Notes under the pieces: generated by a model
Told to the model about the DNA's origin: nothing
Database searches by the model: none
What the model saw: the letters and a program-made list of their open reading frames with translations, nothing else
Shown: positions 14,799-35,088 of the stretch, in pieces
Layout of the letters: each line of letters begins with the position of its first letter
Position numbering within the stretch: the stretch's first letter is position 1
Origin: Sporomusa termitida
GTDB lineage: Bacteria; Bacillota; Negativicutes; Sporomusales; Sporomusaceae
Direction: 5' to 3'
NCBI RefSeq assembly: GCF_007641255.1
Contig: NZ_CP036259.1
Span: 186,001 to 250,000, forward strand
DNA length: 64,000 nucleotides
Made by a program: the position numbers and the translations under genes

Positions 14799-14940
14799 CG
14801 CAGTGTGAACCTAGTCTTTTTAGCCACTGGCAAATGGGAATTATTCCAATGATTAGATGATGGGAGCCGTATGAGTTGAGAGGCTCAAGTACGGTTCTGA
14901 GAGAGCCTGGGGGTGGAACTCCTCCGGGCTACTTACCCCC
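14799..14940 (+). other. Group II intron 3' end, domains V-VI
   Basis: Directly after the maturase relic, GAGCCGTATGA (14864) and ACGGTTCTGA (14891) form the arms of a domain V-like hairpin, the most conserved intron element. A GC-rich domain VI-like hairpin (~14901-14933) ends at 'ctacttacccc'. With the RT relic this marks an intron that has lost its 5' half. Confidence 0.75.
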
Positions 14941-31487: not shown

Positions 31488-32306
31488 ATGACGTCTGAGT
31501 TTAAGGCCATTGTATTATGTAAAGAATTAAACCTGAATAAAATTTCCCAGCATTTTGGTATCAGCCGCAAGTACAAATGGGAAGATTTCCTGGTGCTTAA
31601 AGGCGAGCAGCTGCAAGGCATTGTCAACGATACCGAAGATAAAATCATTTATATCTTTTACTTCGGCAGCATGGTATTTATCAATTTCCAGCATCATCAA
31701 ATCATGGATGTTGTCAAATATATAAAAAAACTGGAACCGGAAATTAATGATGTTAATGTTTTTGCCTATGAGGATGATTACAAACTGGAGATTAGCCCTG
31801 ATGAGACGCCGGCAATCAATAACGATTATATGATTGACAGTGTTCCAAGTGATTATCAGCTGGACATTGTCGCCATCATTCTGGCTAAATCTGTTTCTTT
31901 AGAGAAAAATGAAATCCAGGTAGATACCTTGCTTGACCGGATTGAGAATGTCGTTAACAATCTAAACCGTGGCGAACTGGGGGTCTCGGATGAGGAGCTG
32001 GCCAAGATGTCAGCTAATATCCTTAGCTTCAAACTTAATACTATTTCTTATATCATGCTGCTGGATAATCCTGATATTACCTGGAGCAATGAGGAGGCAG
32101 CAGCTTTATATGATGAACTGTCGGTGGTTTTTGAGCTGAAAGACCGTTATGAAAAACTCCGGCAAAAGACTGAGATCCTGCTTGATATTACAGAGGCGTT
32201 TTCCAATCTGGTACATGCCAAACGCGGCACACGGCTGGAATGGGCGATTATCATTTTAATTTTTATTGAAATAATTTTGTCACTGTACGACATGTTTTTC
32301 CGGTGA
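31488..32306 (+). CDS. RMD1/YagE family protein (DUF155)
   Basis: 272 aa. The central region ('IYIFYFGSMVFINF') and the long C-terminal helical part ('SDYQLDIVAIILAKSVSLEKNE', in part) followed by one C-terminal membrane helix (~251-270) match the RMD1/sporulation-related DUF155 family. Function in bacteria is unknown. It would be tail-anchored with the domain in the cytoplasm. Monocistronic, own terminator. Confidence 0.85.
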   Translation: MTSEFKAIVLCKELNLNKISQHFGISRKYKWEDFLVLKGEQLQGIVNDTEDKIIYIFYFGSMVFINFQHHQIMDVVKYIKKLEPEINDVNVFAYEDDYKLEISPDETPAINNDYMIDSVPSDYQLDIVAIILAKSVSLEKNEIQVDTLLDRIENVVNNLNRGELGVSDEELAKMSANILSFKLNTISYIMLLDNPDITWSNEEAAALYDELSVVFELKDRYEKLRQKTEILLDITEAFSNLVHAKRGTRLEWAIIILIFIEIILSLYDMFFR

Positions 32307-32446: not shown

Positions 32447-32469
32447 GTAACACAATTGATTTGTGTTAC
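32447..32469 (+). repeat. Recombination site, left (inverted repeat L)
   Basis: GTAACACAA-TTGAT-TTGTGTTAC: 9-bp inverted arms around a 5-bp asymmetric spacer, the layout of a tyrosine-recombinase crossover site. Its exact reverse complement is at 33172-33194. Confidence 0.8.
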
Positions 32470-32549
32470 ACGTTTTAAACTAAACTAATATATAAAATAC
32501 GCGATTTTCACCATTTTTCCTCTTTTTTTATCAAAATTTGCTATTTTAT

Positions 32550-33098
32550 TTACAAATTTAAGTTGATATATATATTATCTAACTCGTCCTTGGTAATGCC
32601 TATGTAGGCCAAGGTCACGCTGGGAGCCGAATGGTTAAGCAGTTTTTGAATTTTTGTTACGTCTGCACCACTCTTATAGGCCCAGTAGCCAAAGGTTTTT
32701 CTTAATGTGTGTGTGCCGATAGCGCCATGAATTCCTACGGCCCGGGCAGCCCGGTTCATGATCCGGTAGGCCTGAATGCGAGTAATCGGCTGCTCGCCTT
32801 TTTTGCTTTTAAAGAGCCAGTCGTTGTCGCTGCTAATATTGGCAAGATATTCATTTATTGTCTTTTTACAGGTATCAGAAAGTGGAAAATCCTTTTTTTT
32901 GCCTGTTTTCTTTTCGCGAATGATCACCCTATCCTTTGTTTTTACATCACTTATTTTTAAAACCAATAAGTCAGAGATCCTTAAACCGCTATTAATCCCT
33001 AGAACAAAAAGAAGATAGTCACGCAAGTTCTGCTTTTTTAAATAATTTTTTACGGCATCAATTTGCTGCTTATCGCGAATCGGTTCAACATATTCCAT
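32550..33098 (-). CDS. Small tyrosine recombinase (catalytic domain only)
   Basis: 182 aa, lacking the N-terminal core-binding domain of typical ~300-aa integrases. All catalytic residues are visible: R40 (SGLRISDLL), a lysine in the beta-hairpin (61-70), H130 and R133 (THTLRKTF), H156 (LLNHSAP) and Y165. It should therefore be active. It is the only gene between perfect inverted 23-bp sites, like FimB/HbiF-type invertases of similar size. An outward -10-like TATAAT lies about 40 bp upstream of the start. Confidence 0.9.
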   Translation of the reverse strand: MEYVEPIRDKQQIDAVKNYLKKQNLRDYLLFVLGINSGLRISDLLVLKISDVKTKDRVIIREKKTGKKKDFPLSDTCKKTINEYLANISSDNDWLFKSKKGEQPITRIQAYRIMNRAARAVGIHGAIGTHTLRKTFGYWAYKSGADVTKIQKLLNHSAPSVTLAYIGITKDELDNIYINLNL

Positions 33099-33171
33099 GG
33101 CGTCTCACATCCTCATAATGTTTCTAACTATGTAATTATATAATAACTTACCATCATAAGGCCAAAAAAAT

Positions 33172-33194
33172 GTAACACAAATCAATTGTGTTAC
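33172..33194 (-). repeat. Recombination site, right (inverted repeat R)
   Basis: GTAACACAA-ATCAA-TTGTGTTAC, exactly the reverse complement of 32447-32469. Because the two sites are inverted, recombination would flip the 748-bp segment rather than excise it. Confidence 0.8.
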
Positions 33195-33393
33195 ATTACT
33201 TCTTTAGAAATGGGCTAAATATCATGATAGTAAAGCTCGGAGGGGGTTTTGGTTGCAGGGGGTTATTGCTAACGACAGCTAGGAAACGTGTTGCGTAGAG
33301 CAGACAGACCTAATTGACAGTGAGCCGGATGGCGGGTAATGTTGCGAAATAAAAGGAGGCGAAGCCGTTTCTAGTAATTTAGGAGCGGGAACT
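33195..33393. other. Leader of the chemoreceptor gene
   Basis: About 200 bp with no ORF, several GC-rich stems and AGGAGCGGG ahead of ATG 33394. I looked for a c-di-GMP or other riboswitch and found no recognisable conserved core. This region would receive any transcription leaving the invertible segment. Confidence 0.4.
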
Positions 33394-35088
33394 ATGAAGA
33401 TGAATTTAGCGACAAAAATGATTATTTACTTTTTACTGGTGGTAGCAGTGGCCGCCGGCGGATTTATGTACACAATATGGATGGTGGATGATGCTGTGAG
33501 CGAAAATCTTGAGCTCAAAAATACAATGCTGCCCCTGTTATTGCAAACGAATGAAATTACTTATAATGCCACATCCCAGGTAGCGTATCTGCGGGGCTGG
33601 TTTATTTACGGTGATCGCCAGTTTTATGATGCCTGGCAGCAAGCCAGTAAGGCGTCGACTGCCAATGAAGAGGAACTGATCAGGATGTCGGTTGTCTCCG
33701 AAGAAGGCCGTAAACATGCAGAGGAAACTAAAGCTTTGGATAGTAAATATACAGAACTGGCGGAAACGAAGTTTATTCCGTTGATCCAGGCCGGTAAGCG
33801 CGATGAAGCCCTCAAAGTCATGACTGAAGAAATGGGGCCTATTTCCCAGCAGCTTGATGCCCAGCTTATAGAACATACTAAGTTCAGAACCAAACAAATT
33901 AATGATGCCCTGGACGGGGCTGTTGCCAATGCCCGGCAGGCGGAGACGGCAGCAATTATTGCAGCTGTGCTTGCTACGATAATTGGAATTATTATCGGCT
34001 TTTTGGCAGCCCGCAGCATATCCCGGCCGGTTAATGCCCTGGCCGTGGCAGCCCGGAAGGTTGCAGCCGGCGACCTGACGGAGAATGTAAAAATTGAGCG
34101 GCAGGATGAGATTGGTCAGCTGGCTTCAGCTTTTAATACGATGGTATTGCAGCTTAAGGATTTGATCAGGCAAGTAACCATCAATGCCGAGCAGGTAGCC
34201 GCCGCTAGTGAGGAGCTTACGGCTAATGCTGAGCAATCGGCTCAGGCCTCCAACCAGATTGCTACCGCAATTACCGATGTAGCGGCCGGGGCTACGGCCC
34301 AAATGGAAGCAGCCAATGAAACCTCGGCCGTTGTGGAGCAGATGGCGGCGGGGATTCAACAGATTGCCGCCAATGCCAATCAGGTATCTGATCAGTCGGC
34401 TCAGGCCGCGGATAAAGCCAAAAATGGTGACCAAGAAGTGGGAAAAGCAGTCAGTCAGATGAAACAAATTGAGGATACTGTCAATACCTCTGCCCGGGTA
34501 GTTGTTAAGCTGGGCGAGCGCTCCCGGGAGATTGGCCAGATTGTGGACACTATTTCCGGTATTGCCGGCCAGACTAATCTGCTGGCGTTAAATGCTGCCA
34601 TTGAGGCGGCCCGGGCCGGCGAGCAGGGCCGGGGTTTTGCCGTGGTGGCGGAAGAGGTGCGGAAACTGGCTGAACAATCCCAGGAGGCGGCCAAGAAGAT
34701 AGCCGAACTCATCGGCGAGATCCAGGGAGATACCGAAAAAGCGGTAGTGGCGATGAATGAAGGTACGCAGGAAGTCCGGCAGGGAACCGAGGTGGTTAAT
34801 GCCGCCGGGAGCGCCTTTAAAGACATTATGGCGGTAGTGGATCAGGTATCTGATCAGGTAAAGGAAATCTCCGCGGCGATTCAGCAAATGGCTACAGGCA
34901 GTCAACAGATTGTGGCCTCAGTTAAGAAGATTGACGATCTTAGTAAAAAGTCCGCCGGCGAGTCGCAGGGAGTCTCGGCAGCTACCGAGGAACAACTGGC
35001 GTCTATGGAGGAAATTGCCACCTCCAGCCAGGCCCTGGCATCACTGGCGCAGGATTTGCAAACAGCAGTGACTAAATTCCGGGTGTAG
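33394..35088 (+). CDS. Methyl-accepting chemotaxis protein
   Basis: 564 aa. TM1 ~7-29, a four-helix-bundle (4HB_MCP) periplasmic sensor ~30-185, TM2 ~188-207, HAMP ~208-262, then the MA signalling domain with the invariant tip '[20 protein letters not shown]' (I-A-G-Q-T-N). No C-terminal receptor-tethering pentapeptide. Ligand unknown. Transcription could be affected by the invertible element 200 bp upstream. Confidence 0.93.

Follow-up and report, generated by a model that had tools for sequence, protein, structure and literature searches.

A putative self-contained invertible promoter switch beside a chemoreceptor gene of Sporomusa termitida and related elements in the Negativicutes

Chemotaxis is commonly pictured as uniform within a clone. 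A compact locus of Sporomusa termitida, in which a small recombinase gene lies between two inverted sites just ahead of a chemoreceptor gene, raises the question of whether a chemical sensor might be switched by DNA inversion. The locus belongs to the window, the whole 64,000-nucleotide stretch of DNA analysed here, whose positions are used for its features. An earlier note on this DNA had proposed a self-contained invertible switch able to phase-vary chemotaxis, and the proposal is supported by the target linkage, the opposite orientations and the contig breaks at sites found in relatives. The most probable explanation of the 748-bp segment, with a probability of roughly 80%, is an autonomous invertible promoter switch, inversion in this strain and an effect on transcription being predictions. 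If true, it represents a compact self-contained inversion module with a readable spacer address code, and such elements probably switch chemical sensors randomly between on and off states, cell by cell. If the promoters of chemoreceptors and c-di-GMP phosphodiesterases flip, Sporomusa and its relatives would hedge their bets through the sensory repertoire itself.

The putative invertible segment (32447–33194, without strand; 748 bp counting both crossover sites) is bounded by the left site GTAACACAA-TTGAT-TTGTGTTAC (32447–32469, + strand) and the right site GTAACACAA-ATCAA-TTGTGTTAC (33172–33194, + strand), its exact reverse complement. Each 23-bp site consists of 9-bp arms and a 5-bp asymmetric spacer. 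Sequence comparison confirms this earlier description and adds that the right-site palindrome reaches 12-bp arms (33169–33197). The pair is unique in the genome: at up to three mismatches, the window holds these two sites only and the whole 5.3-Mb genome has no further copy. Two site matches occur in 0/100 dinucleotide shuffles of the window (mean 0.00), and the pair around the recombinase stands far above chance expectation. The element thereby has the inverted repeats bounding a short segment that characterize an inverton.

The sole sizeable gene between the two sites (ORF 32550–33098, − strand) encodes a small tyrosine recombinase of 182 aa, made of the catalytic domain only (PF00589, E 1.7e-31). 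Residues R40, K64, R133, H156 and Y165 are invariant in 53/53 aligned relatives and H130 in 52/53. Because the catalytic residues are conserved across this alignment, the enzyme looks catalytically complete, and PF00589 together with the R-K-H-R-H-Y residues places it among the tyrosine recombinases. The ORF list, the domain match and the residue alignment thus bear out the earlier account of a single, catalytically complete recombinase gene between the sites. The protein scores below the curated cut-offs of the Fim-type DNA invertase models NF007370 and NF007371 (59.5 vs 221 and 56.7 vs 222 bits) and of the Xer models XerA, XerC and XerD (108.2 vs 220 bits and lower); separate full-length Xer matches are present elsewhere in its genome. 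A second paralogue in the same genome (L002, C1:2079492-2080228) is, like L054 and L056, a more distant recombinase with a perfect CTCACATAA-N5-TTATGTGAG palindrome at about −155. This palindrome is present a single time in each of three genomes (the own one, G044 and G057), and L002 is therefore ruled out as a second switch of the same kind.

Intact sites might also belong to a switch that has decayed or frozen in this strain, at which recombination no longer occurs or matters. Such a fate is suggested by the single site pair left in the genome and by the congener G004, where a broken recombinase lies between intact sites. However, the recombinase frame in the window is open with all catalytic residues kept, and the sites are perfect; a frozen switch is hence considered unlikely.

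Tyrosine recombinases act as four protomers on two antiparallel sites and exchange strands across the spacer. In the mechanism proposed for the autonomous switch, the encoded recombinase would bind the 9-bp arms of both sites and carry out strand exchange across the 5-bp spacer. With an asymmetric spacer and two inverted site copies, such exchange would invert the segment and would not delete it. A promoter-like box, GGAA-N15-CGTAT with sigma-H-like spacing (32497–32520, − strand), lies at a position conserved in relatives and reads left, away from the chemoreceptor; computed inversion moves it to 33121–33144 on the + strand, reading towards 33394. The sequenced orientation, in which this candidate promoter points away from the chemoreceptor, would be OFF, and inversion would make the box read into the chemoreceptor by way of the right site and the leader, giving the ON state. 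The earlier note had sought the promoter region at the right end of the segment. Instead, the conserved outward box sits at the left AT-rich end, on the recombinase 3' side, and the right end is where the recombinase's own promoter should lie.

The presumed target (33394–35088, + strand) encodes a methyl-accepting chemotaxis protein (MCP) with the Pfam domains HAMP and MCPsignal, and an MCP or HD-GYP gene is likewise placed in relatives. It starts 200 bp from the right site, behind a leader (33195–33393, + strand). On the opposite side lies an RMD1/DUF155-family gene (31488–32306, + strand). Domain search confirms both of these earlier gene calls, but the switch is unlikely to act on the RMD1-family gene, since its 3' end and not its start faces the element. 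A riboswitch in the chemoreceptor leader was considered and rejected: the leader has no Rfam match at the gathering score, and near the element there are only sub-threshold chance matches. The only Rfam match in the window is a group II catalytic intron (RF00029, 53.7 bits, 14862–14937).

Relatives of the element were surveyed in 200 genomes of the same class, the Negativicutes, with one genome per species. Some recombinase match is found in 133/200, mostly Xer-like at about 30% identity, and close homologues of about 65–87% identity are scattered across the class. In one set of these homologues (set A), a copy of the site GTAACANAA-N5-TTNTGTTAC stands on either side of the gene. A second set (set B: L037-L042, L044, L027, L028 and L029; about 67–71% identity) has a lone site at a constant position of about −164 from the gene, without a nearby partner. 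One branch of the recombinase tree parts set A from set B with support of 88/76, the labels having been assigned from the site layout. The mismatch-free site motif occurs in 30/200 relatives, compared with 1/200 for a reversed control pattern. Even when a spacer match is not required, all 21 set A elements in which the scan finds flanking sites at both ends have exactly inverted spacers, and these spacers vary from element to element. With matching spacers required, the relatives yield 41 distinct site pairs after identical segments are dropped; as several are orthologues within one genus, they are estimated to represent about 32 independent loci. A recombinase or its relic is held by 24 of the 41 pairs, and the other 17 are short trans pairs of about 220–285 bp, far from the recombinase gene.

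The promoter-like box recurs in this family as GGAW-N15-CGTAT (or TGAAT), inside the segments, on the recombinase 3' side and reading outward. The full box is present at the 3' side in 15/24 recombinase-bearing segments and at the other side in 0/24 (1.2 expected from shuffles), is absent from 9/24, several of which have close variants, and stands at one end of 17/17 trans segments; as the pattern was written from the same sequences, these counts describe and do not independently test it. The sigma-H consensus is given as RNAGGAWWW / RNNGAATWW in the covered part of its source (PMC8510167). AGGAAA and the spacing fit this consensus, while most −10 elements are CGTAT and some are TGAAT. Additionally, TGTCGAA, named as the Spo0A core in the part covered of another report (PMC3485338), lies just upstream of the box position in five segments and elsewhere in two more. 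On the ON/OFF reading, most sequenced copies would be OFF, and five (L082, L083, L096, L111 and L127) would be ON; in the presumed ON cases of G044 and G057, the HD gene is about 500–540 bp from the switch. In OFF-state segments, the target-side palindrome continues for 6 bp or more into both neighbours in 15/32, compared with 5/32 on the other side. Five copies in OFF orientation (L070 4187-4470, L075, L077, L112 and L124) have this palindrome lengthened by 13–15 pairs between inside and outside sequence, resulting in a terminator-like hairpin, which would not survive inversion. For the window element the terminator idea was set aside and is not relied on, as the extension there is only 3 bp.

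Genes next to the site pairs are far from mixed in kind. The target test, for which the MCP of the window and a single HD_5 protein served as queries, looked for an MCP or HD_5 gene starting on either side and pointing outward. Such a gene is found on exactly one side in 37/41 pairs, on both sides in 0/41 and on neither in 4/41. Among these four exceptions, L074 has a flank of only 70 bp on that side; another pair is cut by a contig start, and in Propionispira arboris an MCP occupies that side of the identical segment; in a third, an IS110-type element lies between the recombinase element and the presumed MCP target (G009, L115 7536-8816); and the fourth faces a sigma-70 family factor. As a base rate, the whole own genome of the window contains 34 MCP and 23 HD_5 domain matches. 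Representative targets were confirmed with Pfam, and all 12 HD_5 targets inspected have the HD[IV]G and GYP motifs, the marks of HD-GYP c-di-GMP phosphodiesterases. At the loci compared, the controlled MCPs share 33–50% identity with the window MCP in their much more diverged sensor halves and 64–88% in their signalling halves, as if differing sensors had been placed under one switch type.

These neighbours bear on the possibility that the segment inverts yet regulates only itself, through recombinase level or stability, with the chemoreceptor as a bystander under its own promoter. Several features of the window are in keeping with it. The 200-bp chemoreceptor leader lies outside the segment, no strong hairpin or canonical promoter tells the two states apart, a consensus sigma-70 scan of the region finds 4 matches where shuffles give a mean of 4.0 (chance level), and the window MCP may own other promoters. 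However, nearly all pairs have an MCP or HD_5 gene as their outward neighbour, and recombinase-free trans pairs adjoin the same kinds of gene. As the latter contain no recombinase, self-regulation cannot account for them, and as an explanation of the window segment it appears improbable beside a promoter switch.

Whether segments of this kind invert can be judged from orthologous loci. The comparison of orientation among relatives, which had been suggested earlier as a check, finds both states at 3/6 orthologous loci; by comparison, 4/9 are inverted and 5/9 are not. For the recombinase element of G049 and G077, 746/777 positions of the segment are identical when it is inverted and 101/155 when it is not, with flanks identical at 365/398 and 383/399. 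The recombinase element of G049 also has the opposite orientation to that of G031 with conserved flanks, and the same is true of trans pairs in G049 and G060 and in G035 and G052. As expected of invertons, both orientations thus occur in relatives, and assemblies may pick either orientation of an invertible segment.

A second sign comes from the assemblies themselves. Seventeen contig ends in 9 draft assemblies lie at most 4 bp from a site edge, where about 0.04 are expected (computed over 21 draft genomes with 72 sites entered by hand, Propionispira raffinosivorans being excluded from the sum). These ends are G035 C29 and C68; G052 C7, C16 and C21; G085 C9, C36, C51 and C53; G067 C10 and C18; G016 C27 and C87; G089 C359; G060 C43; G044 C4; and NZ_KB905844.1 of Propionispira raffinosivorans. 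Two further contigs, G060 C117 and G005 C63, begin inside a site. Five pairs of contig ends (two in G085 and one each in G067, G052 and G035) match a single intact orthologous locus, one end on either flank, so that the piece absent from the assembly is the invertible segment; for the pair in G016, the flank match to the orthologous locus is weak. Breaks at sites are the expected assembler behaviour if the culture held both orientations, which they support, and other causes of breaks are possible. Taken as two independent signs, orthologue orientations and contig ends support the view that the elements of the relatives invert.

The same comparisons weigh on a rather different idea, in which the segment is a small IS-like mobile element, driven by its tyrosine recombinase and bounded by terminal inverted repeats, that sits where it does by chance and switches nothing. 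A compact gene with inverted ends, found at differing loci in differing species, would look like this; relics exist in G038 and G004, and phage and plasmid records contain relatives that are more distant, with identities of 65% at most. Against it, no genome contains identical multiple copies, the neighbour genes are non-random, inverted sites recombine to inversion and not excision, and opposite orientations are seen at fixed flanks. No empty site was found at the one locus checked, which is non-syntenic: in the congeners G003 and G006 the RMD1 orthologue lies in a context without synteny to the window, and neither an empty nor a flipped orthologue of the window copy is available. A mobile element is thus regarded as very improbable, the least probable of the explanations weighed here.

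If the segment is a promoter switch, the short trans pairs of the relatives raise the matter of which enzyme serves them. In relatives, several spacer-addressed switches before MCP and HD-GYP genes are most likely under the control of the recombinase acting in trans, so that a single enzyme would serve several pairs per genome. Since exchange takes place across the spacer, inversion is expected to require two sites whose inverted spacers match. In multi-pair genomes the spacer is private to the pair (e.g. TTTGC, TATAC and TAGAA in G049), and such pair-specific spacers are predicted to keep each switch independent. Non-autonomous switches can arise through decay of an autonomous element, because a 488-bp segment before an MCP in G038 (L078 4020-4507) retains a decayed recombinase fragment (42% identity over 73 residues) and the recombinase of G004 is broken between intact sites. 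A wider model, tentative and somewhat more doubtful than probable, would be a class-wide addressable phase-variation network. A self-inverting element would seed short non-autonomous switches before MCP and HD-GYP genes, one enzyme would serve all of them, and the private 5-bp spacer would keep each locus independent; through sigma-H/Spo0A-type promoters, a clonal population would diversify its sensory and c-di-GMP repertoire on entering stationary phase. The whole-genome site scan finds no trans site pair away from the recombinase in the window's genome, and the regulon part of the model is therefore not applicable there.

The element shares features with several known systems. The arms of fimS are 9 bp long. 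Like the FimB/FimE-type tyrosine DNA invertases and fimS, the window element combines a small recombinase lacking a large N-terminal domain with 9-bp arms and a predicted promoter inversion; unlike them, it scores far below the NCBIfam invertase cut-offs and has its gene inside the segment. RecV and Mpi are master invertases that act in trans on several switches. According to the parts covered of two reports, Clostridioides difficile has several invertible promoters per genome, some before c-di-GMP phosphodiesterases, and several need RecV (PMC5903667, PMC9286219); for the pdcB phosphodiesterase switch, the recombinase is stated there as not identified (PMC9286219). The site pairs of relatives resemble these switches in number and in partly preceding c-di-GMP phosphodiesterases. 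As far as those parts go, the C. difficile targets are EAL-type phosphodiesterases, whereas here they are HD-GYP proteins and chemoreceptors, and one of the inverted segments contains the recombinase gene, unlike in the RecV system. An 844-bp invertible segment of Providencia stuartii encloses a recombinase ORF and is similar in size (PMC5903667, part covered), but it belongs to a fimbrial locus and has 14-bp imperfect repeats.

The closest precedent is found in Clostridia, where invertible sites most often lie near intracellular signalling and chemotaxis genes, as described in the covered parts of PMC5903667. The examples given there adjoin an MCP gene in Anaerotignum propionicum, an HD-type phosphodiesterase gene in Desulfitobacterium dehalogenans and chemotaxis genes in Clostridium thermocellum (PMC5903667), much as the segments described here adjoin such genes. 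Those parts present them as single loci recognized by the signature of inversion, and name no site, recombinase or regulon common to them. In the Negativicutes, by contrast, a single site family and a single recombinase clade extend across the class, and the recombinase is inside the segment. Narrow literature searches combining chemoreceptor or chemotaxis with DNA inversion, invertible promoter or inverton were empty, and PMC5903667 came from broader ones; no prior report of Sporomusa phase variation or of this site family was found in the literature covered, which lay mostly outside the subscription journals.

In three of the relatives, a third site with the same spacer occurs 2.6–66 kb from a switch. 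These are G005 (L174, 1-3337), G060 (L080, 795 and 9902; L088, 3991 and 19584) and G044 (G044:C4, 207020 and 273011). Such third sites would permit larger inversions or deletions, or else stem from assembly errors.
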